Assembly: GCA_020052415.1 (NCBI GenBank)
Contig: JAGVPB010000029.1
Location: 1 to 56,718, forward strand
From: Bacteroidales bacterium
Lineage (GTDB): Bacteria; Bacteroidota; Bacteroidia; Bacteroidales; JAADJA01
Reading direction: 5' to 3'
DNA length: 56,718 nucleotides
A model generated the notes under the pieces. The model was not told where the DNA came from and made no database searches. It saw only the letters and a program-made list of their open reading frames with translations. Shown piece after piece: positions 540 to 52,473 of the stretch (position 1 is its first letter; each line of letters starts with the position of its first letter). The position numbers were made by a program, and so were the translations under genes.

Positions 540-3323
540 TTATTCAGGTACCTGAGATTCATTATTAAGATTTTTAAGCCACCAATCATTTTTGTCCGGG
601 TTGTTCACCTGCCCATCAAGATCTGTATCTCCGTTAAGGTAACCCGCAGAACCAGCCTGAGGTATCCAGGTTTGAACAACATCAGATAAATTTATGATCC
701 CGTCAGCGTTGGCATCCCCGGCAGTCATTCCATAGAACTGATTTCCCAGGTGATTTTGTCCATCTCCATAAGCCTGCGAAACTGCCGTGGTGAAATCATA
801 AGTAGAAAGACTCCCGGGATCAATTGTCAAAGAATTGGCTGACATAATTCCCAGGTGGTTCCTGTGCCAGATAACAACGTAAGCTTGTTGAAGTATAGGA
901 GTGTTGATTTGAATAGTTGATATTCCATCCACCCCCACTACCATTCCATTATTGAGCAGCAAGGCTGCCTGTCGGGCAACCTGGGTTTCTGTAGTGGCAG
1001 AAGCAGCATCGGAAGCATCGCGAAGCTCCACCAATACCCATTCCGCAACATTCGTATTAGGCGGACCAGGCAATGTTTCTGTTCCTTCATAGTTCCAGGG
1101 CTCTGTGTTGTAAGGCTGGTTTGATGGTAAAAGGGTCAAATCGGTTAAATAAGTATCCATATCAGTTCCATTGAAAGCCCCTTCGAGGTAAATCTTTAAA
1201 TTCAGTGACTGGAGAAGCTGGCTTTCATCACCAACATTTATGGAGGGTTCATTGTCGGCTAATTTACGAACTATCCAGTTATCGAAGTTTGCATCAAGCG
1301 CATAGTAGTTAGTAAATGGCTCAGAAACTTCAATTACCCGGCCGAGATCGAACAGCCTTACTGAAGTTTTGGCAATTGAAGCAATATTCGGCAAGACGCT
1401 TGTCCCTGATGTTGTATTTATCAGGTCTGCTTTGTAATTTGTCCCATCATCCCAAATCCTGACCTTGTAGAGCCCCGGCCCTCCAAACCATGTCGCACCA
1501 CTTTGCCAGCCACTCCCATTCCAGAAGTAAGTTGGGCTGCCTCCCGTTGCTGTATACATAATGATGAATTTACCGGGGTTACTAGAATTTCCGGCAAGAC
1601 GTTGAATGTTTATGCCGTCGTGCGCATGCCACATACCATTGTCCATGGGCACAGGCACGCCAGCCCAGTTTCCAAGACCAATTTCCAATCCTGAGCTAAC
1701 ATTTATCGGATCCGTCGGAGTTTGTGTCAGAAATTCCCAAATAAACGGGGATGTTGCATCCAGCGTGGTTCCAACGACCCAACCAGCTGCAACTGCCGGG
1801 CTATTTGCATGCAGAACTTTTCCGGGCTCACCCGGGCTGTTAGTAGCCAGTCCGACCTGCGGGGCGCCGAAGCCATCAAATCCCTGAAAATAAAGCTGGC
1901 CAACCGATCCAATATCTGTCTTGACAAGGAAAGATGTTTCGGTGTGTGTAACATCCCAGGGAAGACTTGGTCCCAAAACTGGATTCTGAGCATATCGAGT
2001 CCAGTTTGCAAAATCTGTTGTTGACGCAAAGCCTATACGCCAGTTACTTCCTGCAGTCCCGCTATATGTCATGACGAATTGGTTGGGCGACATTTCTACA
2101 ATTCGGGGATTGGCCACACCCCAGCTTTCCCAGCCGGAACCTGTTTCCTGGAATACCGGGTAGCCACCATTGTAAGGTATCCAGGTTCCCGTGAAATCTG
2201 ATGATGTCGCAGCAAATATTCGCCACCGGCCAGACGCGCCGGACTTATTAGCATCGAACAGCAGAAAATAATCGCCATCGATAGATCGCTTGACTATAGA
2301 AGGAGCACCCATTTGATCAATCCCATTGCTTGCATCATAATGGAATTGGCTCAATGTAAGCTTCTGTCCCTGATCCGTCCAGTTCACCCCGTCTGTTGAG
2401 GTGAAAACACCCATGCTGCCACTGGTGTAAGCGCTGCTTGTCCACCCCGCTGCCATCATCATAAGGAGACTATCGCTACTTCTCCTGAGTACCGAAGATT
2501 GTTGTACACTCCATTGATACCATGATCCCGGCACTCCTGACGGACCAATAACAGGGTTGTCTAATCGTTCGTCCCACATATACCCGCCATCCGAACTTTT
2601 TGTGATGCCAATTGCCATAGGGTGACCGGGCGCCGTACTTATGCCCATATAGTATGCAGAGATCTTACCATCCGGACCTACTTCTACTTTTCCATCCGAT
2701 TCAGAAATTATAGGTGCAATTTCACGCGTTCCATAATCGTCCCATTTCCCGGGCCGTTTTGGCAAAACCGGATTAGGTTGTTTGACCCACCCGTCTACTT
2801 TTGTGCCATACATATATTGTGAAGGAGCTAGTGGAACATTAACTACAGCTGAATCCACAGTATTGACGGTCAATCCGCCAATTGTTCCATCCTCGAAGTC
2901 AGCACCAAAGATGAATGTGTTTGCTGCGCTGCTAGCAGAAGTTGCAGCCAAATTACCATAATACAGGTAAACAGTGGTTCCTTCTGTTGGAATACTTGGA
3001 ACTTTGGTCCAGATAATTGCCTGTTGTGTAACGAAATTCCAATTTTCAATCCAGAAAGAAATAAGTGTTATCCCATCAGTATCCGTTATTCGGATATCAC
3101 TTCCATCAACCTGTGTATTTGTGAAATCTAATGAATCATTATTCAGGGTTATGAGCACCTGGTAATCCGTCAGCATTATTCCTCCGGGATTAGCAACAGT
3201 AATTGGTCTCCGATACTGCCAATCCGGATCATACCAACCCTGAGAATTCGCAGTCTCAGTTATCAGGATACATGTCATTGCCATTAATATAGGCAGGATA
3301 AAAAAAGAATAATAATGTTTCAT
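540..3323 (-). CDS. Secreted DUF2341 / GH43-like propeller protein with shared C-terminal EF-hand module
   Basis: A 927-residue exported protein. Residues 1-28 are a signal peptide. Residues about 30-140 are a DUF2341 domain (WQYRRPITV, GSDIRITDTDG, FWIENW, LYYGN). Residues about 190-500 have the repeated blades of a five-bladed propeller of the GH32/43/117 type (SSDGGYMWDE, STDGVNWTD, TSSDFTGTW, STTDFANWT, QLYFQGFDG), suggesting action on or binding to a polysaccharide. Residues about 510-690 look like a concanavalin/LamG-type beta-sandwich. From about residue 706 to the end is the C-terminal module shared with the proteins at 16279, 20733 and 50839, with EF-hand-like loops DANADGIINLSD and DTDLDGQVNNPD and the terminus SQVPE. 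No T9SS-type domain is present. I could not assign catalytic residues, so whether it is a hydrolase or a binding protein is open. Confidence 0.85.
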   Translation of the reverse strand: MKHYYSFFILPILMAMTCILITETANSQGWYDPDWQYRRPITVANPGGIMLTDYQVLITLNNDSLDFTNTQVDGSDIRITDTDGITLISFWIENWNFVTQQAIIWTKVPSIPTEGTTVYLYYGNLAATSASSAANTFIFGADFEDGTIGGLTVNTVDSAVVNVPLAPSQYMYGTKVDGWVKQPNPVLPKRPGKWDDYGTREIAPIISESDGKVEVGPDGKISAYYMGISTAPGHPMAIGITKSSDGGYMWDERLDNPVIGPSGVPGSWYQWSVQQSSVLRRSSDSLLMMMAAGWTSSAYTSGSMGVFTSTDGVNWTDQGQKLTLSQFHYDASNGIDQMGAPSIVKRSIDGDYFLLFDANKSGASGRWRIFAATSSDFTGTWIPYNGGYPVFQETGSGWESWGVANPRIVEMSPNQFVMTYSGTAGSNWRIGFASTTDFANWTRYAQNPVLGPSLPWDVTHTETSFLVKTDIGSVGQLYFQGFDGFGAPQVGLATNSPGEPGKVLHANSPAVAAGWVVGTTLDATSPFIWEFLTQTPTDPINVSSGLEIGLGNWAGVPVPMDNGMWHAHDGINIQRLAGNSSNPGKFIIMYTATGGSPTYFWNGSGWQSGATWFGGPGLYKVRIWDDGTNYKADLINTTSGTSVLPNIASIAKTSVRLFDLGRVIEVSEPFTNYYALDANFDNWIVRKLADNEPSINVGDESQLLQSLNLKIYLEGAFNGTDMDTYLTDLTLLPSNQPYNTEPWNYEGTETLPGPPNTNVAEWVLVELRDASDAASATTETQVARQAALLLNNGMVVGVDGISTIQINTPILQQAYVVIWHRNHLGIMSANSLTIDPGSLSTYDFTTAVSQAYGDGQNHLGNQFYGMTAGDANADGIINLSDVVQTWIPQAGSAGYLNGDTDLDGQVNNPDKNDWWLKNLNNESQVPE

Positions 3324-9673: not shown

Positions 9674-11068
9674 TCATTTACCATTTATGATAAATTTATT
9701 GCTTGCGACAAACCTGTTTCCCGAAAATACATGCAAGCAATAACAACCGGGATTGTAATTTGTTAAATTAATGATCAATTCATTTCGATTATTAAAATTT
9801 CCGTTCATCACCTCCCTTCCCGAATTGTCACAAATTTGTATGTAAAGGTCACACAGTTCAGAGTTAAAAAATAGTTTGATTTCTCCGGCTGATGGATTGG
9901 GATAAATATGACATCCATTCAGATATTCAGGTGTTTCTTTTGACCCGGTTGACGTTGTCAGATGGATGATCCGGATGGCATGGTTATTATAATCCACAAC
10001 ATAGAGCCGATTGAGGTTATAATCCATCGTACAACCCCTGGGAAAATTGAATGTCGAAAGTGTATCAGTTCCGTTTTCAAATCCAGTATCACCTGATCCT
10101 GCGAAAGTACTTACCATTAGATCGTTACTGATTTTACGAACCCGTTGGTTAATGCCATCCCCGACATAAATATTTCCATCATTGGCAATAAAAACTGCAG
10201 TCGGAGTATTAAACCGTGATTCAAGTGCCGGCCCGTTAAGAAAACCCCCGCTATCAGGTCCTGAGTCTCCGGTTCCTGCAACTGTTGATACGATCCTTTC
10301 CGGATCAATCATTCGAATCCTGTGATTGTAAGCATCTGCAACATATATATTATTTTCATTATCAATCGAAAGCTCACATGGTGTGTAAAATCTTGCCGAT
10401 GTATCACTTCCATCCAAATAATCTCCAACGCTTTGAACTCCGATTGATGTACCTCCGCCGGCCCAGGTACTTACAAAACCATCTGTTGAAATCTTCCGAA
10501 TGCGATGGTTCCAACTATCGCCAATATAAATATTATCTGTGTCGTCAAGACAAATACCACGAGGGTAATTAAATTTCGCCTCCAGGGCAGGTCCATCTAA
10601 CAAACCGGCTTGTCCGGTACCGGCAATAGTTGTGACAATACCATCAATGCTGATCTTTCTGATGCGTTGATTCAGAAAATCGGAAACATACATATTACCT
10701 TCCGGATCAAAGCAAATATTGATAGGCTGGTTGAATTTTGCCTGACTTGCTTCGCCGTCAAGGTAGCCAGCTATTCCTGAACCTGCATAAGTACTCACCT
10801 GCCCGTTTACACCGATTTTCCTTATTACATGGTTATATGCATCGGCAATAAACAGATTTCCTTCGGTATCAATGCAAATACCAAAAGGTTTATTAAAACT
10901 GGCCTCACTCGTATCCCCATTGATATATCCCGGATTACCTGTACCTGCATAGGTTGTAACATAATTTTGACCGATGGTTTGAGACATTGAAATAATCATA
11001 CAGTACATGATGATTATAAATCCTTTATTCAATTCCGGCAGGAAATGATAATTTCGATTTCTTTTCAT
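9674..11068 (-). CDS. Secreted NHL-repeat beta-propeller with T9SS sorting domain
   Basis: A 464-residue exported protein. Residues about 10-34 are a signal peptide-like hydrophobic stretch after a KRNRNYH start. Six NHL repeats follow, each with a TYAGTGxxGYxxG...ASFNxPxGI pattern and an IRKI strand, making a six-bladed propeller (about residues 38-370). Residues about 385-464 are a Por secretion C-terminal domain: IYPNPSAGEIKL, an SGREV turn, YNPGCYCLHV and a KFIING end. It is therefore predicted to be exported by the type IX system to the cell surface. NHL propellers mostly bind proteins or glycans; no enzyme motif is seen. Confidence 0.9.
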   Translation of the reverse strand: MKRNRNYHFLPELNKGFIIIMYCMIISMSQTIGQNYVTTYAGTGNPGYINGDTSEASFNKPFGICIDTEGNLFIADAYNHVIRKIGVNGQVSTYAGSGIAGYLDGEASQAKFNQPINICFDPEGNMYVSDFLNQRIRKISIDGIVTTIAGTGQAGLLDGPALEAKFNYPRGICLDDTDNIYIGDSWNHRIRKISTDGFVSTWAGGGTSIGVQSVGDYLDGSDTSARFYTPCELSIDNENNIYVADAYNHRIRMIDPERIVSTVAGTGDSGPDSGGFLNGPALESRFNTPTAVFIANDGNIYVGDGINQRVRKISNDLMVSTFAGSGDTGFENGTDTLSTFNFPRGCTMDYNLNRLYVVDYNNHAIRIIHLTTSTGSKETPEYLNGCHIYPNPSAGEIKLFFNSELCDLYIQICDNSGREVMNGNFNNRNELIINLTNYNPGCYCLHVFSGNRFVASNKFIINGK

Positions 11069-14412: not shown

Positions 14413-16266
14413 TTATTTTTTCAGTTCAAGTATTAAAATGGACTTTGGCGGTAATGTAAGTACAGTTAAATAATTTATTACCTCCCCGGTAACTACATTT
14501 CTTGCATATTTATAATTTTTCATACATTCATCAAACCTTTCAGGTTTAAGTGCCTTCATCTCATTATTACTGTTGTTGAGGGCAACCATAACACATTCAT
14601 CATCAGTATATCTGAAATAGACATAGATTTCATTTTCAGGAATGAATTGCTTCAGCTTTCCATATTGTATCAGTTTATTATTTAAACGCCATTTTAACAG
14701 AGTTTTCAGGTAATTGAAAGCTTCGTTCTGTGCTTTATTCCTTCCGGCAGATGTAAACGCGTTTACCGAATCACCCGGCCAGCCGCCTGGAAAGTCCTTT
14801 CTGATGGAGCCATGCCCCTTTTTTTCTTCACCTGTCATCAATAACTCTGTTCCGTAATAAATGCATGGGATCCCCCTTGTCGTTAATAAAAAACCCATTC
14901 CCATTTTCCATTTTTTTATGTTTGAATTGACTTTGGGAAAGTACCGGTCCAGGTCATGATTATCACAAAAGATCAGATTATTATCTGGGTGGGCATACAA
15001 AAAGTCCTGGGCAAGGACATAATAAAGGCTCAGGAGACCCTCCGTCCAGCCATCCTTCTCATTAAAAGCTTTATTGAGCGCATAATACATTGGGAAATCC
15101 GTTACACTGGGTATCCCCGAATTATATCCATCTTTATTGAGTGCATCCTTCTGAAAATATGCTGTCATTGCCTCCTGCTGGAGCCACGTTTCCCCAACCA
15201 CATTAAATTTCGGATATTCGGTGAATATTGCGTTGCTCCACTCAGTCATGAAATTTCTATATGAATAAGGCTGGGTATCAATCCTGATTCCGTCAATCCC
15301 GGAAAATTCGATCCACCAGATTGTGTTTTGAATGAGGTACCTAGCAAGAAATTCATTCCGCTGATCGAGGTCAGCCATGTGTGTATCAAACCAGCCGGTA
15401 AGCATTTTATCCCGGTCATAAACCGAAGCATAGGGATCAGTAATCGTTGAAGCCCTGAAATTGGACCTGTAAAACTCATCATTATTGTTGATCCAATCAG
15501 TTCCCGGTAAATTTTGCATCAGCCAGTGGTGGATGCTGCAGTGATTAAATACCATATCCATAATTACCTTTAATCCCCGTTTATGGCTCTCATTGACCAA
15601 CCTTGTGTAATCATCATTTGTCCCGAACCTGGGATCTATCCTGTAAAAATCAGTAATTGCATAGCCATGGTAAGAATAAAAAGGATTGTTGTTTTCGACA
15701 AGAGGATTTGACCAAATAGCAGTAAAACCAAGGTCCCTGATATAATTAAGGTGATTTATTATCCCCGCAATATCCCCGCCATGTCTGCCGTCAGGATCAC
15801 TCCTGTCACACTGTTCAAGCATTTCAGGAATATTATCATTACTTGTATCCCCATTTGAAAAACGGTCGGGCATTAAAAGGTAAACAGCGTCCGACTTGTT
15901 GAAGCTCTTTCGTGAGGAAGAACCCTGTTTCCTTCCCCTTAGCTCGTACTTAAATGAAGTATAAACCGATTTTCCTTTTTTAAAGAAAATTTCAAATTCG
16001 CAAGGTGGGATATCCTTGCTGATTTCCAGTTCAACAAAAAGATAATTGGGATTGGTTACTTTCGAGACTCCCGTAATTACTATACCAGGATGATTTAATT
16101 CAGGAACCGTAACAGATATATCCTTTCCGTAAACCAGCAACTGAAGCTGCGGATTTGACATGCCTGTCCACCAGAAAGGAGGTTCAACCCTTTCAATTTT
16201 TGAATCGTCAGCCCAAACCGTCCCCTGCAACAGAAATAGCAGGACGATACTATATTTCAATTTCAT
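14413..16266 (-). CDS. GH13 alpha-amylase / cyclomaltodextrinase-like enzyme
   Basis: A 617-residue exported alpha-glucan hydrolase. A signal peptide (KLKYSIVLLFLLQGTVWA) is followed by an N-terminal immunoglobulin-like domain (about 20-125) as in neopullulanase/SusA-type enzymes. The (beta/alpha)8 barrel then carries the four GH13 motifs: DMVFNH, GIRIDTQPY (nucleophile Asp), VVGETWL (acid/base Glu) and FCDNHDLDR (third Asp). A C-terminal beta-domain closes the protein. It starts 12 bases after the GH57 stop and ends one base before the alkaline phosphatase start, so it is the middle gene of a tight operon. It likely cleaves maltooligosaccharides or pullulan released by the larger GH57 enzyme. 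Confidence 0.93.
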   Translation of the reverse strand: MKLKYSIVLLFLLQGTVWADDSKIERVEPPFWWTGMSNPQLQLLVYGKDISVTVPELNHPGIVITGVSKVTNPNYLFVELEISKDIPPCEFEIFFKKGKSVYTSFKYELRGRKQGSSSRKSFNKSDAVYLLMPDRFSNGDTSNDNIPEMLEQCDRSDPDGRHGGDIAGIINHLNYIRDLGFTAIWSNPLVENNNPFYSYHGYAITDFYRIDPRFGTNDDYTRLVNESHKRGLKVIMDMVFNHCSIHHWLMQNLPGTDWINNNDEFYRSNFRASTITDPYASVYDRDKMLTGWFDTHMADLDQRNEFLARYLIQNTIWWIEFSGIDGIRIDTQPYSYRNFMTEWSNAIFTEYPKFNVVGETWLQQEAMTAYFQKDALNKDGYNSGIPSVTDFPMYYALNKAFNEKDGWTEGLLSLYYVLAQDFLYAHPDNNLIFCDNHDLDRYFPKVNSNIKKWKMGMGFLLTTRGIPCIYYGTELLMTGEEKKGHGSIRKDFPGGWPGDSVNAFTSAGRNKAQNEAFNYLKTLLKWRLNNKLIQYGKLKQFIPENEIYVYFRYTDDECVMVALNNSNNEMKALKPERFDECMKNYKYARNVVTGEVINYLTVLTLPPKSILILELKK

Positions 16267-16278
16267 CGTTCTGTCCTT

Positions 16279-19200
16279 TTATTTGGGAACCTGAGAATGA
16301 TAACCGGTATTTGCCATACCTGAAACCTGAGTACCTGTGCCGGAATTAGGTATCCAGATATCGTTTTTATCCATATTATTCACCTGGCTGTCAAGGCTGT
16401 AATCGCTTTTTTTGTAACCGTAACTTCCTGTTTCCAATCCCCACCAGCCAGTCTGATCGGTTTCGTTTACTGTGCCATCGGCATTAGCATCGCCTCCAAC
16501 CAATCCCCAAATACCGGGGGCAAGTTCCTTATATCCCAAACTGCCGCCAAGTACCTGTGATGATGAAGTTGAGAAATCATAGTTGTAAATGCCTGCCGTT
16601 TGACTTATCGGATTTGCCGAAATTACTGCAAGATGATCCCGGTGACGCACCACAACGAATAGCTGTTCCTGTACTGAAACATCAAAATCAAGTACCGGTG
16701 AGCCACTGATTGTGATCACAGAACCATCTTTATTAATGAAAGCAGCCTGACGCGCAATGATGGTTGCACTTGTTGCCGACAGTACATCCGGGGCATCACG
16801 TAACTCAAGTAAAATCCAATCCACGACCTGAATCCCCGGTATTGAAATAACTTCTTCAGTTCCCGGATAATTCCACGGTGCAATTGAATAGGGTTGTATC
16901 AATGGTATTACAGCTTCTTCATTAAGGATAGCGTTCATCTGATTTATTTCGAAAGGGCCTTCAAGGAAGAATTTCAAACTTAATCTTACGGTTGGTTCCA
17001 TAACCTCAATATTCCATATCAGAGTATCAGCAATATTACCAGGTACATTATCGGTGACGGTTATTTCAAGATTATGATTACCTACATCCGCAACTCCCGG
17101 CTGATAAGTATATCCGGAAGTATTTCCTGACGGCAAACCATCAAGTCTCCAGGCATATTGAATTACATCATTTTCTGCGTCGGTTGCAGTGATGCTGAAA
17201 AGTTGCGAGGTTCCGGATTCCATGTTGAAATTTAATTCTATTGGATTAAATGTAATAATTTCCGGTGCAGTATTAGGAACCCTGTGAACCGTGCGTGGCT
17301 CCATTCCGGATAATGGCATTGGACCTGCAATATATGGCTGGAAAAAAGCATAGGCAAATTGTAGCACAGGATGAGTTCCGGTTGGATTCAAAGCCGGAAA
17401 AATTTCAGGTATAATTTGATTGTTCTCCTGTGAAATATGAACAGAGATTGCAATTCCTTCAGGACTTCCGAGCGCTGTCCATGGAATTGAAATTTCTGTA
17501 AGTCCGTTTGAAGCCCAGCCTTCGTAGGAACTACCAATAACTCCATTTCCCGGATAAATCCATTCTGTACCTGTCCAGTTATTCACCTGCATTGAACCAC
17601 CGCCTCCTTCAATGGCAACCTGGTACTCGGGCAAATAGTTACCTGCAAACCCAACCCTGCCCCATGAATCATTTATTGCTCCACTGCCGGTTGTTTGATC
17701 AGTATCAATGTTTACAAACAAATCTCCTCCACCATTCAGATTCAGAGAATAAAATCCCATATAAAGGTTTGAATTATCCCATGTAATATAGAGATTGTGA
17801 GCCTGGCTCTCGATTAATTCTGCAGGTGATATAAAATCATTTATTCCATCGTTTATGATTGTATGAGGCGTTATTCCAGTTGGAATTACAAGAACAGTTG
17901 TATTTTGATCTCCAATGACATTGTTATTCAGATCCTTTATATTAGAAATAACAATTTGACCATCATCACCGGCAACAAATTGTCCACTGATCGTTAACTT
18001 CACTTTTCTCCAGTCCGATTGCCTGACCGCACTTAAAAGAGTGTAAGTATTTGTAAAATTCTGAAAATCGTAGTTGGAAATTGTTTGTGCAGTCGTAAGA
18101 TCAACAGATTCGCTGAAGGTAAGCATGACCGCATTATTTGATGTCAGAGTTGAGGGGGAATAGACTTCAGGAGGGAATACATCCATATTTTGCGCTGCAA
18201 CCACGTTAAGCTCAGAAACCGCTGTACCCGTTGGAGTAGAAGTATAACCGGCAAATAATCTGACCTTAAACTGGTTATAGCCATGAATTTCATCACCTTT
18301 AACAAGTGTGCCTTCAAATTCTGCATTCTGTGAAGCGCCTCCATTACCAAGCACCAGTGCTGCCGTGGCTCCGGATGCAGAATTACGGTAACCGCAATAG
18401 GAACCATTACTCCCCCATACTCTCTGTAAATTCCCTTTTCCGCTCCATAGAATATCCATCAGGTCAGGGCTCCAGCCTGACTTCACATAGCCGGTCTGAT
18501 CGTAAAAGTCATAAATTACATCGAGGTAATCCATACCGGTATTCAGGATCAGCTGTTTCTGAACACCCCACTGATCAAGGGTTGCCATTACAGTATCGCC
18601 ATAGGATTGATTAATTGTAATATTATAAATGCTGTTCTGCTGATTCGGCCAAACTTCGGATAAGGCAGCAAAATGATTGGCCGAAGATTCGTTGAAATCG
18701 CCATCCGTTTCAGACCAATAGGCCATATCAGAACTGACCACTGAAAAAGCTTCTCCAAATCCATTTTTATAAAAAACCCAGTTGGCTTTTCCGCCGACAC
18801 TTTCAAAAACCATAAAAACCTTATCGTTATGCATCACCAATTCATCGGTTCCGTCATGGTCAATGTCGTCAAAATAACATGCTGTCGTAACAATATACTG
18901 TCCATCAGCCCAGCGTGAGGCCTGTGTATAAACATTTGCGTTTTTTATATGAGCAGAATAGCGGTGTTCCCAGTCAGCTATCGTGCCACCGGATTGCCAA
19001 CCTGTTTCATGCAGGTTGATCATCAAAGTGTACCAGGCAAGTTGGGCAAGGCTATTATCATTAACACTTGTAAGAAAGGAATATGCATCCCACCACACAG
19101 TGCCATAATCCCATTGAGGCGAATGCTGGTCGGAATGAGAAGGTGTTGAAGCCCAATTGATGTACCAACTGTTATTACTACCTCCATAACCGCCGGTTCC

Positions 19201-20574
19201 ACCGAGAAGCCCGTAAGTACCGTTGGTGAGATTGGCGCTGGTTCCGTTAAAGTCCGGATTTTGTATGGCATCTTCTAATTTCCAAACGTTTACTCCGGGA
19301 TAATTGTCGTGACAATACCACAATACATTTTCATAATTATCAAGCATGAATGTTCCATCGTGTTCATTCATTTCTGCAGCCGCCTCCCAGTCGGTTCCAT
19401 AAACGCAGATATTGTACTGACCCATTGATGCGATCAGATTTTTGGCTGCATTTGCATCATAGTGCATATTACCAACAAAGGTATTGTTTATGGGGACCAC
19501 CCTCAAGTCAACACCGGAACCATTGCTCATCCAATGAATTTTACGATTGTCATAACCATTGAGGTGAGGCCAGTCGTCCAAAACAACACCCCAAACACCG
19601 TTTTGAGTCCAGTTGTCACCGAGCCAGTCAATGACACCTGCGTCCGGATAATATCCCTGAGATAACCAAACACGTTCAGGAATCCAGGCAATGTGAGGCA
19701 CATAATTATATCTGAAATTGACCATTTGCGATTCAGTATATACCGACCATTCATTCATCGAGTTCTGCATAAATGGCATAATATGCTGCCCCAATGCTGA
19801 CGTCATCATCGAGACGAGGCCCTGGGATGCCATTGTTGTAAGCAGGTCGTTGAATTCGGGATTATGCCATTCAGCTGCAGGCATCAATGTTCCTGACATG
19901 TGAAAATTTCCGGGTAATCCTGTTGCCTGATGTATCTGGAGTACTTCGTCATACCCGCTGCCGTCAAGCCCGCTGATACCAAAGGCATTGCCATAATAAA
20001 CGTCAGTATAGGTAAGGCCCTGGTTACCGTGATGAACAAAAGCACAATTGCCGCCATCAAGAACTTCTTTACCATCGGATTTAAATTCATCAGCAATTTT
20101 ATTATCTATTAAAATCCTTATTTCATATTCCAGGCTTCTGTTGGATGGAATGGTTACCTTTTTTAACATGATTTCCAGCATATTACTTGGGGGAGTACGT
20201 AAATAATCATAGTTGACATTGCTGCCATTTATTTGAGCTATTTCGGCTGTTTTTGAGATTACTGCACTTTTGCCGGATAAATCTTTAATATTTATCATAG
20301 CACAGATTTCCTTTCCAAGGAAGTTGTCGCTGATAACCAGATTTGACTGCCTTGTAACCATATTGTCAAAGGTGATCCTGATCAGAAGTCCATTACTGGT
20401 CTGTCTCCTGAATACTGATGTGATATCTCCGGTGGCTCCCATACAATCACCCACAGGATCGAATCCGATTAAATCCGGTTTTGTCCAGGTTTTAGGGTCG
20501 CCGTCAAATTCAGTCGCCAGTAAACCGAATGATCCTAAGATCATTAAGTAAGGCAAAAGGTATAACTTTATCAT
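16279..20574 (-). CDS. Very large secreted GH57-like glucanase with shared C-terminal EF-hand module
   Basis: A 1431-residue exported protein. The ATG at 20574 gives a signal peptide (MIKLYLLPYLMILGSFGLLA); an in-frame ATG at 20718 adds 48 residues without export character. Residues about 60-650 resemble GH57 amylopullulanases: HQATGLPGNFHMSG, WIPERVW (candidate catalytic Glu near 300), YGTDWEAA (candidate Asp near 395) and an HLNGYDNRK segment. Beta-sandwich domains follow: an Ig-like domain with MLTFSESVDLT, a DOMON/CBM9-like domain (LYITWDNSNLYMGF) and a cadherin-like domain (about 1090-1190). Residues about 1197-1431 are the module shared with three other proteins (loops DANADGTVNETD and DSQVNNMDKND, terminus SQVPK). 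GH57 placement rests on motifs only. It is the first gene of the glucan operon and is divergent from the starch-binding protein. Confidence 0.85.
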   Translation of the reverse strand: MIKLYLLPYLMILGSFGLLATEFDGDPKTWTKPDLIGFDPVGDCMGATGDITSVFRRQTSNGLLIRITFDNMVTRQSNLVISDNFLGKEICAMINIKDLSGKSAVISKTAEIAQINGSNVNYDYLRTPPSNMLEIMLKKVTIPSNRSLEYEIRILIDNKIADEFKSDGKEVLDGGNCAFVHHGNQGLTYTDVYYGNAFGISGLDGSGYDEVLQIHQATGLPGNFHMSGTLMPAAEWHNPEFNDLLTTMASQGLVSMMTSALGQHIMPFMQNSMNEWSVYTESQMVNFRYNYVPHIAWIPERVWLSQGYYPDAGVIDWLGDNWTQNGVWGVVLDDWPHLNGYDNRKIHWMSNGSGVDLRVVPINNTFVGNMHYDANAAKNLIASMGQYNICVYGTDWEAAAEMNEHDGTFMLDNYENVLWYCHDNYPGVNVWKLEDAIQNPDFNGTSANLTNGTYGLLGGTGGYGGSNNSWYINWASTPSHSDQHSPQWDYGTVWWDAYSFLTSVNDNSLAQLAWYTLMINLHETGWQSGGTIADWEHRYSAHIKNANVYTQASRWADGQYIVTTACYFDDIDHDGTDELVMHNDKVFMVFESVGGKANWVFYKNGFGEAFSVVSSDMAYWSETDGDFNESSANHFAALSEVWPNQQNSIYNITINQSYGDTVMATLDQWGVQKQLILNTGMDYLDVIYDFYDQTGYVKSGWSPDLMDILWSGKGNLQRVWGSNGSYCGYRNSASGATAALVLGNGGASQNAEFEGTLVKGDEIHGYNQFKVRLFAGYTSTPTGTAVSELNVVAAQNMDVFPPEVYSPSTLTSNNAVMLTFSESVDLTTAQTISNYDFQNFTNTYTLLSAVRQSDWRKVKLTISGQFVAGDDGQIVISNIKDLNNNVIGDQNTTVLVIPTGITPHTIINDGINDFISPAELIESQAHNLYITWDNSNLYMGFYSLNLNGGGDLFVNIDTDQTTGSGAINDSWGRVGFAGNYLPEYQVAIEGGGGSMQVNNWTGTEWIYPGNGVIGSSYEGWASNGLTEISIPWTALGSPEGIAISVHISQENNQIIPEIFPALNPTGTHPVLQFAYAFFQPYIAGPMPLSGMEPRTVHRVPNTAPEIITFNPIELNFNMESGTSQLFSITATDAENDVIQYAWRLDGLPSGNTSGYTYQPGVADVGNHNLEITVTDNVPGNIADTLIWNIEVMEPTVRLSLKFFLEGPFEINQMNAILNEEAVIPLIQPYSIAPWNYPGTEEVISIPGIQVVDWILLELRDAPDVLSATSATIIARQAAFINKDGSVITISGSPVLDFDVSVQEQLFVVVRHRDHLAVISANPISQTAGIYNYDFSTSSSQVLGGSLGYKELAPGIWGLVGGDANADGTVNETDQTGWWGLETGSYGYKKSDYSLDSQVNNMDKNDIWIPNSGTGTQVSGMANTGYHSQVPK

Positions 20575-20732: not shown

Positions 20733-22760
20733 ATGAAAAAAATCAGACTTTCTATTTTTATCACAATTGTGTTGATGGCAAGTATCAGCCTAATGGCGCA
20801 GGTCAATGTGACTTTCAAGGTTGATATGCAGAATCAGGTAGTGCCACCGGAAGGCGTTCATATTGCAGGCAGTTTCCAGGGATGGAATCCTGCAGGTACA
20901 CCGATGACCAATCTCCTCGGCGATATTTATACTTATACTTATACCGCAACTTCAGGAGAAACACTCTATTGGAAATACGTTAACGGCGATGCATGGGGTG
21001 AAGATGAGAGTGTTCCGGGCGCATGTGCCTCTGGTGGTAACCGGTTTCTCACAGTTCCCGCCTCAGATACCATTTTACCAACAGTATGTTACGGTAGCTG
21101 TCTTCCCTGTGTTCTTCCACAGGTTGATATTACATTCCAGGTTGATATGTCGAACGAAACAGTTTCACCAACCGGGGTTTTCATTCAGGGTTCGTTTCAA
21201 ACGCCGTCGTGGAGCGGTCAACAATTGACAGATATGGGAAATGATATTTATGCAATCACCGTGACGATGGGTGTTGGTGAGTTTCATGAATATAAATTTC
21301 TGAACGGGGCAACTTATGAAACCGTACCTCCTGAATGCGGCTATGGTGGATTTTCAAACAGATCTATCACTGTTCCCGCAAGCAATACGACTTTACCTTT
21401 GGTTTGTTTTGGCAGTTGCGATCCATGTACTGTTGTAACAGATATAAATGTAACATTCAGAGTTGATATGTCTGAATCTGTTGTAGCTGTGGAAGGAGTT
21501 CATATCGCTGGTGGTTTCCAGGGTTGGAATCCGGCCACAACACTATTAACCGATATGGGAAACGGCATTTGGCAAACGACCTTTGTATTGCAATCAGGGA
21601 GTTACCACGAATATAAATTCGTTAACGGAGATGCATGGGGCGAGGATGAATCTGTGCCGTGGTACTGCAATAATAACGGAAACAGGTATATTACTGTGCC
21701 GGATGCTGATGTAATTTTGACGGCAGTTTGTTATGCCACTTGCCTTGTTTGCAATCCTCCACAGGTTGATATTACCTTCCAGGTTGATATGTCGCTTCAA
21801 AGTGTATCGCCCTTCGGCGTTCATCTGGCAGGAAGTATGCAGGGCTGGAACCCGGCTGCAACTGAAATGACAAATATCGGTAATAATATATATTCTGTAA
21901 CTGTAACTGTTGGTGAAGGAGAATTCCACGAATATAAATTTATCAACGGGAATGACTGGCCGGGAGCTGAGGCTGTACCGGCACCCTGTGCAAATTTTGG
22001 AGGCAATCGCGAGTTTTTTGTTCCAGCAGTAAATACAACCCTCGATTTGGTTTGTTTTGGTGAATGTGCACTTTGCGTCATTCCGACCCATACATTCGAT
22101 CTCAATGTATTTCTGGAAGGTCCCTTCAATGGAACAACAATGAACTATGATCTGGATGTGGCAGGGCAGTTGCCCGTCAATCAACCTTATAATACAGCAC
22201 CCTGGAATTATACCGGCAGCGAAAACATTTCAATAGCGCCAAATGCAAATATTACCGATTGGGTTTTGGTAGAGTTAAGAACTACTGATGGAGATGCATC
22301 AACAGCAACTTCCGATAAACGCATCCACAGACAGGCTGCATTGTTGCTTGCAGATGGGTCAATCGTTAAAACAGATGGATTAAGCCCGATTGATTTTACG
22401 GGAGCCATTTTAAACAATCTTTATGTCCTGATCTGGCACAGGGACCATCTCGCTGTGATGTCTGCTACTCCTTTAGCCCCGGCCGATGGAAACTATGTTT
22501 ATGACTTTACGGATGCACTTGCAAAAGCTTATCTTGATGGCCAAAAAAGTCTCGGCGGCGGGAAATTTGGCATGATGGCCGGTGATAGCGATGCAAGCGG
22601 TATGATTGACAACCTGGATAAGGATGTGAACTGGGATTCGGAAACTGGTAAAGCAGGATATTATAAGAGTGACCTGAATCTGGACTCACAGGTGAACAAT
22701 CCAGATAAAAATGATGTTTGGGTCCCAAACTTCGGAGCAACGACACAGGTTCCAAATTGA
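20733..22760 (+). CDS. Secreted protein of four CBM20/48-like starch-binding repeats with shared C-terminal module
   Basis: A 675-residue exported protein with a signal peptide (residues 1-22). Four repeats of about 105 residues follow, beginning near residues 23, 130, 237 and 344. Each opens with VxxTFxVDM, continues GVHIAGxFQGWNP and YKFxNG with a tryptophan (W replaced in repeat 2), and ends with four cysteines in a C-x(n)-CxxxCxxC tail. The pattern resembles the AMPK/CBM48 and CBM20 glycogen- and starch-binding folds. Residues 453-675 are the C-terminal module shared with the GH57, propeller and EEP proteins (loops DSDASGMIDNLD and NLDSQVNNPD, terminus TTQVPN). No catalytic domain is present. 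It is divergent from the GH57 gene across 158 bases and is followed by a strong terminator. A glucan-binding surface scaffold is the best inference. Confidence 0.88.
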   Translation: MKKIRLSIFITIVLMASISLMAQVNVTFKVDMQNQVVPPEGVHIAGSFQGWNPAGTPMTNLLGDIYTYTYTATSGETLYWKYVNGDAWGEDESVPGACASGGNRFLTVPASDTILPTVCYGSCLPCVLPQVDITFQVDMSNETVSPTGVFIQGSFQTPSWSGQQLTDMGNDIYAITVTMGVGEFHEYKFLNGATYETVPPECGYGGFSNRSITVPASNTTLPLVCFGSCDPCTVVTDINVTFRVDMSESVVAVEGVHIAGGFQGWNPATTLLTDMGNGIWQTTFVLQSGSYHEYKFVNGDAWGEDESVPWYCNNNGNRYITVPDADVILTAVCYATCLVCNPPQVDITFQVDMSLQSVSPFGVHLAGSMQGWNPAATEMTNIGNNIYSVTVTVGEGEFHEYKFINGNDWPGAEAVPAPCANFGGNREFFVPAVNTTLDLVCFGECALCVIPTHTFDLNVFLEGPFNGTTMNYDLDVAGQLPVNQPYNTAPWNYTGSENISIAPNANITDWVLVELRTTDGDASTATSDKRIHRQAALLLADGSIVKTDGLSPIDFTGAILNNLYVLIWHRDHLAVMSATPLAPADGNYVYDFTDALAKAYLDGQKSLGGGKFGMMAGDSDASGMIDNLDKDVNWDSETGKAGYYKSDLNLDSQVNNPDKNDVWVPNFGATTQVPN

Positions 22761-24883: not shown

Positions 24884-26098
24884 TCAATCACTCAGCTTTA
24901 CAAGTTTAATGGATTGATTGTTAATCCCGGACTGCAAAGTACAAATGTAAATTCCCGGTTTTACAATTTGTCCTGAATCACTGCGGCTATCCCACAATAT
25001 CTCATGCTCTCCCTTGAATTTTATTTCATTAATGAGTGATCGGACCTTTATACCTTCCGGATCGCAGATGGATAATGAGACTTCCGCTGTCTGCGACAAG
25101 GTAAAGTGAATCTTTGTGTTCGTATCAAATGGATTGGGAGATACTGAGAGCTGGAAATTCATTGACAGCGGCTCAATATCAGAAACTGAATTCGGATTAA
25201 GTATTTCGGTGATGACTTCACCGGTTGCACTGGCAGGATTTATTCCAAGGATATAGGAAGCTGTAATAGCCATATCAGGCAATACGCGTGATTGGGAAGA
25301 AGTATAATTTTCCTTAACATTCGGACCCAGCGCCAAAAACATGATGTGCCGGCAACCTTCACAATTGCAGCCATGATTCTCGAATCCGCCGTGCTGGTCA
25401 TCGTGCCGCCCATGATCATTGGTAACTATCATAGTTGTGGTGTTCTGATAAAAAGAATCGGACTGAATTTTATCCCAAAGCTGACCCACAACCTGATCTG
25501 CATTCTGAATGGCAGATGTATATTCATTCCAGTTTCCGCTGTGTCCGGCATGGTTAACATCAGCAAGATAAACCCATAAAAAATGCGGATGGTAATTATC
25601 CATCACCCATTCCGTTTGCTCTGCCACATCCGAGTCGGTGCTTCCCTCGCTGTGGAACTGTGGCCAGTAATCCGGTCCGTAATCCTCATCGAAACTCGGC
25701 AACCAAAGATCCTGTATGAATTCGAGAACATAAAAACAGTCACCGGCAGGGACATTTTTATCCTTCCGGAAATACTCAAAGATCGTTGGCAACTTAGCAT
25801 AGCTTGTTGATGAGCCATTGTAAACGGTATCGAAAATATCCGTCCATGCTCCACACCACAAAGCCGGAATGGCACGGGAAGTATAGGTTGTTCCATCATT
25901 CCTGAATTCATCTATCACAGCACCCTGTGCCGAAATCCCCCACATTTCAGGGATGAACTGATGTGCAGGATCGCCGAAGGTTTCCGTATGGCGCGCTCCG
26001 TCAATGATCACGATCATCATTTTGTCCGATTGCTGGGAAAATATTGAAACTACAACTGGAACGCACAAAAAGAACAGGAATAAAAATCTAATTTTCAT
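24884..26098 (-). CDS. Secreted alkaline-phosphatase-superfamily hydrolase with T9SS domain
   Basis: A 404-residue exported protein with a signal peptide (KIRFLFLFFLCVPVVVSIFS). Residues about 26-300 are an alkaline phosphatase/sulfatase-fold domain: MMIVIIDGARHTETFGD with the metal aspartate and a threonine nucleophile candidate, DVNHAGHSGNW, and TNDHGRHDDQHGG with the C-terminal metal ligands. A CNCEGC cluster follows the last motif. Residues about 315-404 are a FlgD-like/Por T9SS sorting domain (VSPNPFDTNTKIHF, SICDPEG, KPGIYICTL). It may be a phosphodiesterase or phosphatase for extracellular substrates; type I phosphodiesterases share these motifs. The gene is convergent with the S41 protease gene. 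Confidence 0.88.
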   Translation of the reverse strand: MKIRFLFLFFLCVPVVVSIFSQQSDKMMIVIIDGARHTETFGDPAHQFIPEMWGISAQGAVIDEFRNDGTTYTSRAIPALWCGAWTDIFDTVYNGSSTSYAKLPTIFEYFRKDKNVPAGDCFYVLEFIQDLWLPSFDEDYGPDYWPQFHSEGSTDSDVAEQTEWVMDNYHPHFLWVYLADVNHAGHSGNWNEYTSAIQNADQVVGQLWDKIQSDSFYQNTTTMIVTNDHGRHDDQHGGFENHGCNCEGCRHIMFLALGPNVKENYTSSQSRVLPDMAITASYILGINPASATGEVITEILNPNSVSDIEPLSMNFQLSVSPNPFDTNTKIHFTLSQTAEVSLSICDPEGIKVRSLINEIKFKGEHEILWDSRSDSGQIVKPGIYICTLQSGINNQSIKLVKLSD

Positions 26099-33833: not shown

Positions 33834-35447
33834 TTAATGGAGGTAAACCTTTTCTGTTTTCGAGAACCAGTCGTTGAAAACCTGCACAATGTAATATCCC
33901 CTGCCATTGCTGACATTGAACTTGTTCAGATTATCGCAAACCAAATCTCCTTTCATTATCTCTCTTCCCCAGAGATCATAAATTGCCATCATCGCCGGTG
34001 TATTCGACCGGTAATTGATGTACACATCTGTCCTTTCGGCGTGAATTTGAATTAAGCTTTCCATATCATCCGGTGTTAGTGTTTTGTACAAAGAATTATT
34101 GGTTGACATCATCATAAAATGAAGCAGGTAGCGGTCATCAACTGTACCTTCAACCAGATTCATCATGAATTCAGGATTTTTTGTCAGGCTTATCAGTTTT
34201 CCGGGGTAATATAGGTCTTCAATTAAGACCTCAACTCCGCTGTTTAAACCCTCGTATCCTTCAAACTTGAAGCTATATAGGCCTAAAGCGCCTGTGCGTA
34301 TGCCCACTGCCACGGTTTTTGTAAAATTATTGAAGGGCAGAAAGTTGACCGAATACTCAAAATTTTTCCTTAATGTGTACAACTGCGGAGCCTCTTCGAT
34401 GCCATAGAGCTTGAGGGCATCATATTCCTTATCGAAGCCATCCTTTGCAGCGCTGTAATATCCCACTTTCATATTGTCCTCGTATCCGTTTCCTGTTAGC
34501 GAAAAAGAAAACAGATCGCTGCTCGCGTCAGTACTTTTATAAAAAGCCTGTGAGCTATGAATTCTTTCGCTGTTCGGAAAGGTGAGAGAAGGGCTTGCGG
34601 CATTGGCATGAATCCAGAATCCCTGTGTTGATGGTATTGATCCGTCAGTTTTGGTTCCGTACCCTCCGAGGTTGTAATTCCAGGTAAGGTATTGGGTGCC
34701 GTCATAAACATAAATCGTTGCATCCACATTGGATTTTGTCCAGGAGCTGTTCCATTCAATCGCTGATGGATAAGGATTACCCACAAGGTTCCATCCTTGT
34801 CCGTTATGAACCGCTCCTGAAGTATAAGTTAGTGATGCGGATTTGTCGCCGGTATTGATAAGCCCCTTGAAATGAACATCCGTCGGGCTGCTGATACCGC
34901 TAGAAGGCCAGGCAAAGTAACCCTGGGTAACATTTAAAGGAGCCGTCAAAGAAGTAATGTATGACCAGGTGCTGTCAGGCTCATACCATTTCAAAAGATA
35001 AATGCCGGCATAAACTGCTGCCGCTCCTGTAGAAATGGGAGAGGAAATGATATTCCAGCGATCAGCAACTATATGTTGTTCAACCCTTGAGTAGCTCCCT
35101 GTTACGATTCCGTTTGTAATCAGGGAAGCCATTCCTGAGGATGAAGCTTTTATGAGGAGACTGTCGCTCAGAGTAAGATTACCATCAACCGTGATATAGG
35201 AATCATCGGGTACTGTAAGCTTATAGGTTCCTGAACCTGTAAAATTGACGTCCATGTTTCCTAATACTGTTCTGTCGGGAGTAATACTTTTCAGGTTCAT
35301 ATTTCCGCTTCCGCTGAATTTGATGTAATTCGAGGAAGATCCAGTGATATAGCCTCCGCTGTTTGTAATTCCCTGAGGAAATCCTGTTAGTGCAAGTCCG
35401 GTAAGTAACAGTATCAGGTAGAAGACTATGATTGTTTTTGTTTTCAT
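33834..35447 (-). CDS. Secreted T9SS-sorted surface protein, unknown function
   Basis: A 537-residue exported protein. The ATG at 35447 gives a clear signal peptide (KTKTIIVFYLILLLTGLALT); the in-frame ATG at 35561 would place 38 extra residues inside the neighbouring gene and was rejected. The N-terminal part (about 25-130) is beta-rich and glycine/serine-rich (SGGYITGSSSNYIKFSGSG). The middle has a conserved WNIISSPI...GWNLVGNPYPSAIEW pattern common in large Bacteroidota surface proteins. The C-terminal 70 residues form a degenerate T9SS domain (YDLWGREIMKG, GRGYYIVQVF, KTEKVYLH). It follows the C1q-like gene by 37 bases in one unit and ends at a terminator. Confidence 0.85.
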   Translation of the reverse strand: MKTKTIIVFYLILLLTGLALTGFPQGITNSGGYITGSSSNYIKFSGSGNMNLKSITPDRTVLGNMDVNFTGSGTYKLTVPDDSYITVDGNLTLSDSLLIKASSSGMASLITNGIVTGSYSRVEQHIVADRWNIISSPISTGAAAVYAGIYLLKWYEPDSTWSYITSLTAPLNVTQGYFAWPSSGISSPTDVHFKGLINTGDKSASLTYTSGAVHNGQGWNLVGNPYPSAIEWNSSWTKSNVDATIYVYDGTQYLTWNYNLGGYGTKTDGSIPSTQGFWIHANAASPSLTFPNSERIHSSQAFYKSTDASSDLFSFSLTGNGYEDNMKVGYYSAAKDGFDKEYDALKLYGIEEAPQLYTLRKNFEYSVNFLPFNNFTKTVAVGIRTGALGLYSFKFEGYEGLNSGVEVLIEDLYYPGKLISLTKNPEFMMNLVEGTVDDRYLLHFMMMSTNNSLYKTLTPDDMESLIQIHAERTDVYINYRSNTPAMMAIYDLWGREIMKGDLVCDNLNKFNVSNGRGYYIVQVFNDWFSKTEKVYLH

Positions 35448-35484
35448 TTCATTAGTTTTTAAAGAGTTTATCATACCTGATCTC

Positions 35485-50838: not shown

Positions 50839-52473
50839 TTATTGAGGAATTTGTGATGAAAGCTGGTTGTTTTTAATCATAAAGTCATCCTTATCCCTGT
50901 TGTCAGTGATTCCGTCAAAATTAAAATCGGATGGAAAATAACCAGTCCATCCGGCCTGCAAATTCCAATAAAGGATTTTATCATCGGTATTGATAAATCC
51001 GCTTCCGTCGCTGTCGCCTGAGATCATTCCCCAAATGCCGGAAGCTATTTCCTTATGGCCGTTTATTCCGCCGTAAGCCAGACCGGAAGCGATTGAGAAG
51101 TCATAAGAAAAGATATTATCTGAGAGCTGTGCGGGAAATGCACTCATAACTCCAAGGTGATTGCGATGCATGACGACAACATATAACTGGTTCTGAACGG
51201 AAAGGTTGAAAGTCAGGTTTGAATAACCATTGGTATCAACAACCGAACCGTTGCTTAACAGGAAGGCTGCCCTGCGGGATAACCGTGTATCAGGAGTTGC
51301 AGAGACGGCGTCTTGTGCATCGCGCAATTCAATCAATACCCAATCTATGATTTCCGGGTTTGGAATAAAGTTCACGTTTTCATCCCCCTGGTAATTCCAT
51401 GGGGACTGGTCATACGGCTGATTTCCCGGAAGGAGGGAATTAATTTCATTGGACATAACCGGGTCATTAAACGGGCCTTCAAGAAAGACTTTGAGTGAAA
51501 GCGTAAAATTTTGCTGAGGTGCGGCTGATTCTATTGCAAATTTGCTGATTATAGGTATATGATCGGCCATGAAATAAAGTGCCTGAAGAATTGAATCGGG
51601 AACGGTTGTATTTACCGGAGGGCTAATGAGGGCTAAATTAAGGTGAAGGCCATCGTTGCCAACAGGTATATATGAACCGGGCACATAAGTGATTTTGTCA
51701 GTTCCGGAAAGCAGATCACCAGTAAAAAGCATGAAATCGAAGCGATCGTCGAGTCCGCCGGTGGCACCGCCACCAAACTGTGCGGTACGTGTACTTTGAG
51801 TATGGATAGGAGCAAATACAGGATCGTCGTGCCAGTTTCCTGCCCCCAGAACATCATTCAGCGGATAAAGACCTTCATTGAGCAAAGTACTGTATGCAGT
51901 TTCCGTTGATGAATAAAGGTTAAAATCACCTCCGATAATTAAATTTTCGATATTGGGCATTGAATTGACATGCTCCTTGAACCTCATCACCTCTGCAAGT
52001 CTCTTGTTTCTGTCTGTTGATGTATTGCCGGCTTTCAGATGCGCTGAATACAGGTAAAAGAATACAGTATCAGTAATACCGGGTGAATTATTATAATAGA
52101 GGACATATTCCTTGATTAACCTCAGGGCGGTTTGAATAGTATCCTGTGAGTACAATGTAAACATTTCGCTGTTATAAAACAACATATTGTCTGTATCTGG
52201 ACCATCAATAAATACTGCCTTCTGATATTTTGATTCACCAAATACGTTAAGTCCTTCTTCGAGCAAGAGTACTGCACCCACATCTGATAAGAGTTCATTT
52301 ACCAATAGTATATCGGGTTTAACATACTGGTTTATTGTCCTGAAATTTACGATCCGTTCAGGAGTAGTTCCGGGGAAGTTTAAAATATTGTAGTACATGA
52401 CAGTTGCCGTGTCTGTTTGGGACATGGCAGGCAGATAGCATAGCACAGCTATAAGTGAAATGATTCGTAACAT
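50839..52473 (-). CDS. Secreted EEP-type nuclease/phosphatase-like protein with shared C-terminal module
   Basis: A 544-residue exported protein; the ATG at 52473 gives a signal peptide (LRIISLIAVLCYLPAMS), whereas the in-frame ATG at 52500 adds nine polar residues. Residues about 25-310 resemble the endonuclease/exonuclease/phosphatase fold: VMYYNILNFPG, ILLVNELLSDVG (metal Glu), LIIGGDFNLYSS (GDFN motif) and ADHIPIISKF (the catalytic Asp-His). Residues about 322-544 are the C-terminal module shared with the GH57, starch-binding and propeller proteins (loops DSDGSGFINTDD and NFDGITDNRD, terminus SQIPQ). The substrate may be extracellular DNA or a phosphodiester; this is open. Confidence 0.85.
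   Translation of the reverse strand: MLRIISLIAVLCYLPAMSQTDTATVMYYNILNFPGTTPERIVNFRTINQYVKPDILLVNELLSDVGAVLLLEEGLNVFGESKYQKAVFIDGPDTDNMLFYNSEMFTLYSQDTIQTALRLIKEYVLYYNNSPGITDTVFFYLYSAHLKAGNTSTDRNKRLAEVMRFKEHVNSMPNIENLIIGGDFNLYSSTETAYSTLLNEGLYPLNDVLGAGNWHDDPVFAPIHTQSTRTAQFGGGATGGLDDRFDFMLFTGDLLSGTDKITYVPGSYIPVGNDGLHLNLALISPPVNTTVPDSILQALYFMADHIPIISKFAIESAAPQQNFTLSLKVFLEGPFNDPVMSNEINSLLPGNQPYDQSPWNYQGDENVNFIPNPEIIDWVLIELRDAQDAVSATPDTRLSRRAAFLLSNGSVVDTNGYSNLTFNLSVQNQLYVVVMHRNHLGVMSAFPAQLSDNIFSYDFSIASGLAYGGINGHKEIASGIWGMISGDSDGSGFINTDDKILYWNLQAGWTGYFPSDFNFDGITDNRDKDDFMIKNNQLSSQIPQ

Follow-up and report, generated by a model that had tools for sequence, protein, structure and literature searches.

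Four window proteins with a shared C-terminal module

Contig JAGVPB010000029.1 of a Bacteroidales bacterium (GenBank assembly GCA_020052415.1) was analyzed over a stretch of 56,718 nucleotides, here called the window, in which four secreted proteins end in a common module of about 220 residues (Table 1). An earlier note, made from the sequence alone, had put this module forward as a second sorting, anchoring or docking tag on otherwise unrelated proteins. Pairwise BLASTP alignments of 220-225 residues with 41.6-48.9% identity and E-values between 1e-58 and 1e-72, much too strong to be due to chance, confirmed the homology; the motifs named in the note recur in all four copies in slightly varied form (e.g. 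HRDHLAVISA in one copy and QIPQ in another), and the N-terminal parts of the carriers are indeed unrelated to each other according to Pfam. The description needs one correction, as in the protein at 16279-20574 the module is extended by 14 residues that have QVPK again at their end. Four other window proteins had been credited with a Por domain, the tail of cargo of the type IX secretion system (T9SS), which is correct for 37192-38328, 9674-11068 and 24884-26098; the fourth, 33834-35561, scored below the cut-off (20.2 bits versus 23). The module region of the four whole window proteins has no match in Pfam or NCBIfam, and neither library gave a catalytic or named sorting-domain match for the module.

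Table 1. Module copies, their predicted sites and their carriers in the window.
Feature	Position	Strand	Evidence
X-dockerin-like module, C-terminus of the 540-3323 protein, end SQVPE	543..1208	-	BLASTP, alignment, HMM
X-dockerin-like module plus 14-residue extension with QVPK end, C-terminus of the GH57-like 16279-20574 protein	16282..16989	-	BLASTP/alignment
X-dockerin-like module, C-terminus of the starch-binding-repeat protein; row 1 of the structure model	22089..22757	+	BLASTP, AlphaFold, VIA-align
X-dockerin-like module, C-terminus of the EEP-nuclease-like protein, end SQIPQ	50842..51510	-	BLASTP/alignment
Predicted dockerin-type EF-hand calcium loop 1 (D1, N/D3, D/N/S5, D12, mostly K13, W17)	22584..22619	+	106-module alignment
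Predicted dockerin-type EF-hand calcium loop 2	22671..22706	+	106-module alignment
QVPN at the extreme C-terminus (VPx motif)	22746..22757	+	VPx counts
Secreted carrier: DUF2341 and GH130-like stretch (both above Pfam cut-off), module	540..3323	-	Pfam
Secreted carrier: GH57-like (E 0.0014) and Big_5-like, both below cut-off, module	16279..20574	-	Pfam
Secreted carrier: CBM20/48/X25-type starch-binding repeats, module	20733..22760	+	Pfam
Secreted carrier: endonuclease/exonuclease/phosphatase (EEP)-like (E 1.3e-4, just below cut-off), module	50839..52473	-	Pfam

The AlphaFold model of the module is confident (mean pLDDT 96.9, pTM 0.93) and contains both elements that the note had anticipated, a beta-sandwich and calcium-type loops, the latter followed by two helices. 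When the model was compared with the PDB by Foldseek, ranks 1-9 went to type II chains, either X-dockerin or cohesin-X-dockerin, with modest E-values between 3.5e-3 and 3.6e-2. VIA-align yielded Z scores of 10.1-10.7 over 145-149 residues for seven X-dockerin chains and 9.4 over 141 residues for an eighth; the best match was 4fl4_C (Z 10.7, 148 residues, 3.5 A), and the next unrelated row had a Z of 5.0. According to this model, the match to type II X-module-dockerin dyads spans the whole module, i.e. a beta-sandwich X-module directly followed by the dockerin.

An alignment of 106 modules revealed that the ligand positions 1, 3, 5 and 12 of both loops are conserved, which points to two predicted calcium sites of the EF-hand type. 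In loop 1, the residues D1 (106 modules), N/D3 (98), D12 (105), K13 (83) and W17 (106) stand out, and in loop 2 the corresponding numbers are 106, 90, 106, 103 and 101. The DK...W pattern is present in both loops and forms an internal repeat as in dockerins. Furthermore, a sequence profile search of the PDB up to E 1 had as sole matches two dockerins of C. cellulolyticum, which are weak (E 0.12 and 0.39) and lie exactly at the two-loop region.

Copies and carriers in the source genome and its relatives

The source genome (G000; 4.67 Mb, 94 contigs) encodes 69 distinct modules, counted in open reading frames (ORFs) of at least 120 aa at E ≤1e-20 (72 rows minus 3 duplicates); the shorter remnants L066, L067 and L068 do not belong to this count, and 74 matches were obtained by tblastn with the starch-binding protein as query and 70 by profile search. 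At or near the C-terminus are 59 of the 69 copies, including incomplete modules (e.g. L049, L063) and the variant L064; one copy is a fragment, and in nine a further domain comes after the module. In eight of these nine, FISUMP domains follow (TIGR02145, 8/8 above cut-off), and in the remaining one a T9SS type A tail. The combination of module and FISUMP recurs in L069-L075; in L074, the part of one protein that was read has five FISUMP domains.

Using a crude test, we found a signal peptide in 62 of the 69 carriers, and a lipobox in none of these 62. In 64 of the 69 proteins the N-terminal part was compared with Pfam, and the families among the matches listed (the first 25 of 59 and the first 25 of 58) comprise peptidases S8, M14, M28, C1, C25 and M1, alpha-amylase and CBM20/48 starch-binding modules, as well as phosphoesterases, PKD, GEVED and lectin-like domains. 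In view of these peptidase and starch domains, degradation of protein and of storage glucan or starch at the surface is more likely than a cellulolytic role. Within the window, a gene for a cyclomaltodextrinase-type GH13 enzyme (14413-16266, minus strand) adjoins the tagged GH57-like and starch-binding proteins, resulting in a small starch locus.

Several modules of the source genome are interrupted by stops or frameshifts, or consist of no more than a short remnant (L048, L059, L049/L062, L067), which suggests turnover of the module family. We also observed a variant whose loops follow a (Y/L)(S/L)GxxNDR-type pattern instead of the EF-hand spacing, with VP still near the module end. It was found in L064 and L065 and, in other families, in L188, L189 and L200; the copy in L065 precedes a Por tail. 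The T9SS of the source genome is represented by SprA, five PorP-family genes and at least 150 type A tails (150 of 323 candidates scored). On its contig C87, equal-scoring Por-tail matches are mirror-paired on opposite strands (9904/119739; 31400/98243), so that the contig resembles an inverted duplication or an artefact of assembly.

At least 548 relatives of the module are present in named genomes, and the best 79 loci belong to metagenome-assembled genomes (MAGs) labelled Bacteroidales, 'Chlorobiota' or 'Bacteroidetes' and to one contig labelled Thermoplasmatota. The module matches in these loci are C-terminal in 106 of 117 cases, internal in eight and run off the contig end in three; of the eight, L148 is really C-terminal with a 22-residue extension, and the module of L125 is followed by about 1000 residues unlike FISUMP. 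The contig filed under a Thermoplasmatota archaeon MAG (L102, JAFGML010000039.1) carries three module ORFs typical of the Bacteroidales genus and is probably misbinned. Two sets of modules were compiled, one of 65 (near full length, duplicates removed) and one in which 102 of 113 were kept after a similarity filter.

In a sample of the phylum, 27 of 198 genomes contained the module at E ≤1e-6, with one to six matches in each genome besides G000 (at most 14 scored per genome). All 17 genomes of the same genus have modules, with 3 to 70 matches each in a profile search, and none was detected at E ≤1e-20 in 24 genomes from other families of the order. The module-rich MAGs appear to be mostly genomes of the same genus, judged by identical cohesin places (with the exception of G204, G209, G210, G212 and G213), and therefore a large number of copies is for the most part a feature of the genus. 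Outside the genus, we read 20 stretches covering 16 of the 26 other module-bearing genomes, and all 23 modules in these 16 genomes of other families are C-terminal and at most 34 residues away from the stop. Thus, the expectation that the module is always C-terminal applies to 59/69 copies of the source genome and to 23/23 outside the genus; an internal position, which the note had named as a refutation, was seen in 9/69 copies, so that the rule has exceptions in this genus.

Cohesins on scaffoldins and T9SS-tailed anchors

The components of a cellulosome-type complex, i.e. dockerin-type tags on enzymes, a multi-cohesin scaffoldin and a cohesin-bearing anchor, are encoded in one genome. The cohesin-like partner suggested in the earlier note was found in the same genomes as the module, carried by scaffoldin-like proteins as well as by anchors with a T9SS tail. 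In G000, the cohesin family PF00963 gave 13 matches up to E 0.1, a lenient limit at which 2 of 14 control genomes match as well; nine matches are above the cut-off, and 10 of the 13 lie inside module-bearing ORFs. Likewise, PF00963 is present in 18 of 20 module-bearing MAGs (20 of 21 were searched, leaving out the one labelled Thermoplasmatota), and cohesins occur in 16/17 genomes of the genus versus 5/24 from other families of the order. In the phylum sample, 15/27 genomes with the module and 47/171 of the others have PF00963 (p = 0.006), which is supportive and confounded by kinship.

A tuned HMM identified two scaffoldins in G000, a protein of 1160 aa with four cohesins and the module, and a protein of 801 aa with three cohesins and the module. 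The four-cohesin protein with its module is conserved in G000 and at least eight other genomes with a length of 1158-1169 aa and the same spacing, and a four-cohesin protein with a module is also found in another family (L198, G078). These scaffoldin counts are minimum numbers from 16 stretches chosen by cohesin ORF length, in which the scaffoldins of L175, L179 and L181 and the anchors of L089 and L181 are cut or split.

Both scaffoldins are paired with an anchor gene. The three-cohesin protein is encoded at most about 170 bases downstream of an anchor that has one cohesin directly before a TIGR04183 tail, and this combination of cohesin and tail is present in 9/9 anchors of this first type that were read. 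Directly upstream of the four-cohesin protein lies a second type of anchor, a homologous protein with a T9SS-type tail in 9/9 genomes read; its tail was scored by Pfam in the G000 copy. This copy consists of Kelch repeats, a beta-helix, Dockerin_1 and Por_Secre_tail, the latter two above cut-off, and between these two lies a domain without a Pfam name that is cohesin-like. A nine-genome profile of this domain matched the scaffoldin cohesins in hhalign with a probability of 94.7 (E 5.9e-8). In both anchor types an ordinary dockerin-like repeat is located immediately before the cohesin or cohesin-like domain (L160:5842-11226; L164:3096-8270), with PF00404 E-values of 0.0021 (below cut-off) and 5.5e-7 in the two anchors.

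The assignment as cohesins is in agreement with comparisons to known structures. The profiles of the anchor and of the three-cohesin protein match cohesins of known structure with E 2e-7 and 3e-7, and the four-cohesin profile has 2xdh as its sole, weak match (E 0.083). One repeat of the four-cohesin protein was modelled from a nine-row alignment (pLDDT 89.5); all 50 listed structural matches are cohesin entries with Z up to 13.6, and type I cohesins are at the top.

Docking, export and comparison with known systems

Of the three roles proposed for the tag (sorting, anchoring or docking), docking is the one supported by the X-dockerin fold and by the cohesins on scaffoldins and T9SS-tailed anchors in the same genomes. 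On balance, we consider it probable that the module is an X-module-dockerin-like docking tag which assembles a T9SS-anchored, cellulosome-like surface complex. In this reading, an X-module beta-sandwich with two dockerin-type calcium loops stands at the end of unrelated exported proteins, among them proteases and nucleases, starch enzymes, and adhesive and PKD/GEVED proteins. The module most likely plugs into cohesins, and the sites for it would be offered by the scaffoldin-like proteins, which have three or four cohesins and a module of their own, and by the large beta-helix/Kelch proteins with a type A tail. As the anchors are encoded directly upstream of the scaffoldin and have the cohesin near their end, the module of the scaffoldin may dock on the cohesin of the anchor, and the modules of the carriers on the cohesins of the scaffoldin. 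The T9SS tail would replace the SLH domain of clostridial anchoring scaffoldins, and a surface-bound cellulosome-like complex for proteolysis and starch use would be the outcome. Sequence or prediction gives the module with its fold match and calcium loops, the cohesin identity, the domain architectures, the T9SS tails and the conserved pairing of genes; from architecture and co-occurrence we infer the binding between module and cohesin and which partners belong together, and the way tail-less carriers cross the outer membrane is likewise a matter of conjecture.

Several observations speak against this assignment. Foldseek found no match for the module model at E ≤0.001, and Pfam Dockerin_1 (PF00404) did not reach its cut-off in any of the 106 modules (9/106 at E ≤1, best 0.0028), which is why we call the module X-dockerin-like and leave it outside PF00404. 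By sequence and Z score the cohesins are type I-like, whereas the module is type II-like. In the second anchor, the cohesin-like domain is not matched by PF00963 at E ≤1 and resembles the cohesins of the first anchor less clearly (hhalign probability 70.1, E 4e-5), and the dockerin-like repeat of the anchors could occupy the neighbouring cohesin in cis before the T9SS tail. PF00963 is common in Bacteroidota generally (62/198 genomes of the phylum sample at E ≤1e-4), and at the same threshold 12 of the 27 module-bearing genomes lack it, among them G088 and G156 with six module matches each (partial in G156); the module therefore exists without a recognizable cohesin. Of the 20 MAGs, 2 have no PF00963 match either. 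In a tree of 190 modules, the scaffoldin modules cluster and yet nest among the carrier modules, and therefore there is no clean two-level split of specificity. A further weak point is that the export of carriers without a T9SS tail is left unexplained.

This last point leads to the strongest alternative, namely that the module is primarily a new C-terminal sorting signal of the T9SS or of another outer-membrane route, a fourth class beside the types A, B and C distinguished in the accessible text of the relevant papers (PMC10202324; also PMC12618676). It would be read via its fold and the VPx end, and the dockerin-like fold would have been recruited for recognition by a shuttle protein. Like the C-terminal domains (CTDs) of T9SS cargo, the module sits at the end of signal-peptide proteins of T9SS-positive Bacteroidota: it is C-terminal in 59/69 copies of the source genome with a Por tail in 1/69, the signal peptides (62/69) come without a lipobox (0/62), and the distance of at most 34 residues to the stop in all 23 copies of other families leaves no room for a Por tail. 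The chain end itself also fits. In the genus and its near relatives, 140/153 unextended modules end in VP or VPx, compared with 15/392 other ORFs of the fetched loci, and the 13 without VPx include L175, L181, L183, L048 and L049, which are broken or cut by the end of the stretch or contig. Among the 28 extended modules, which reach at least nine residues past the profile end and include the variant L064, 25 end in VPx again, e.g. ...QVPDNIPQGGFKCMVPK and the window's own ...TQVSGMANTGYHSQVPK. As VPx is rebuilt after extensions, the motif is kept at the chain end itself, as expected of a C-terminal recognition signal.

Outside the genus, however, the VPx end is weaker (11/23, plus three in which VP stands two or three positions before the end), and 8/69 copies of the source genome are followed by FISUMP domains. 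SprA is present in 27/27 module-bearing genomes versus 127/171 others (p = 0.0009), but we rejected this co-occurrence as proof of T9SS dependence: counted by genus it is 24/24 versus 76/79 (Fisher p = 1), and since SprA is nearly universal at this level (100/103 genera) it says little. In contrast to T9SS CTDs, the module has 220 residues, paired calcium loops and a dockerin-dyad fold, and none of 106 modules matched the type A and B models TIGR04183 and TIGR04131 of NCBIfam at E ≤1. For type C (ChiA, cl41395; a tail of about 100 residues) there was no match in NCBIfam or Pfam, and the type C model may be outside these libraries. A pairing with PorP/SprF in the manner of type B substrates was discarded too, as the five PorP-family genes keep a distance of about 21 kb or more from the module genes considered on the same contigs. 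The same holds for a 'long' type A CTD: the Prevotella tails in question have the usual type A motifs according to the accessible text (PMC11969387). Overall, it seems rather unlikely to us that the module is primarily a sorting signal.

Docking and export may also be combined. Nearly all carriers are without a known T9SS signal, and together with the C-terminal placement and the conserved and rebuilt VPx end this is the reason why the docking tag may be an export signal as well. We tentatively regard it as possible, and less probable than docking as such, that the module with its VPx C-terminus is a docking plug and at the same time an unrecognized outer-membrane export signal for about 60 tail-less proteins. 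Two routes are conceivable: the T9SS could recognize the X-dockerin with its VPx end, which would then be a sorting domain of a new class, or the carriers could attach to cohesin proteins with a T9SS tail while still in the periplasm and be exported folded as their passengers. By contrast, it is improbable that the module has no dedicated partner and is a passive cap stabilized by calcium or a domain for carbohydrate binding. The genomes without recognizable cohesins and the frequency of beta-sandwich folds in surface proteins might speak for this, but the match to the X-dockerin dyad extends over the whole length with unrelated folds far lower in Z, residues of the loops, helices and tail are strongly conserved, and multi-cohesin proteins encoded in conserved gene pairs end in the module.

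Cellulosomes are the textbook machines of Gram-positive Clostridia, in which the X-dockerin is found on one scaffoldin per system and the anchoring scaffoldins are attached by SLH domains. The module described here shares with the type II X-dockerins of Clostridium thermocellum CipA/CipB and Acetivibrio cellulolyticus ScaA the C-terminal beta-sandwich followed by a double EF-hand dockerin, and it also ends cohesin-bearing scaffoldins. It differs by its presence on about 60 enzymes and other carriers, an identity of 17-19%, DK...W in both loops, the VPx end and its occurrence in T9SS-bearing Bacteroidota. As in the clostridial anchoring scaffoldins, a cohesin stands beside a surface-anchoring domain and the scaffoldin is proposed to dock via its own C-terminal X-dockerin, whereas the anchor is a T9SS type A tail (9/9 of the first anchor type).

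The closest precedent is Ca. Stygibacter (Cloacimonadota), for which the accessible text of PMC8542988 proposes a cohesin scaffoldin whose C-terminal domain is of the T9SS type, together with dockerin-bearing enzymes of GH57, S8 and C25. The system there has one scaffoldin of 3755 aa with domains assigned by InterProScan (PMC8542988), whereas we found two conserved pairs of scaffoldin and anchor genes in Bacteroidota and an X-dockerin-like family that is missed by Pfam and NCBIfam. The planctosome of freshwater Planctomycetes, also named in the accessible part of this paper (PMC8542988), belongs to another phylum. In the accessible text of a 2024 survey of cellulosome-displaying bacteria, 'bacteroid' appears only in two reference titles, which refer to the clostridial (Pseudo)Bacteroides cellulosolvens (PMC11557425). 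A full-text literature search, whose coverage does not extend to most subscription papers, found no description of such a system in Bacteroidota. X-dockerins and cohesins as such are already known.

If this assignment is correct, dockerin-type surface complexes in Gram-negative bacteria would have been overlooked, and a large set of unannotated tails would gain a function. It also poses the question how dockerin-tagged enzymes without a tail of their own cross the outer membrane of T9SS bacteria. Should the module serve as a dual docking and export tag, export and cellulosome-like assembly would be one step in a Gram-negative bacterium.

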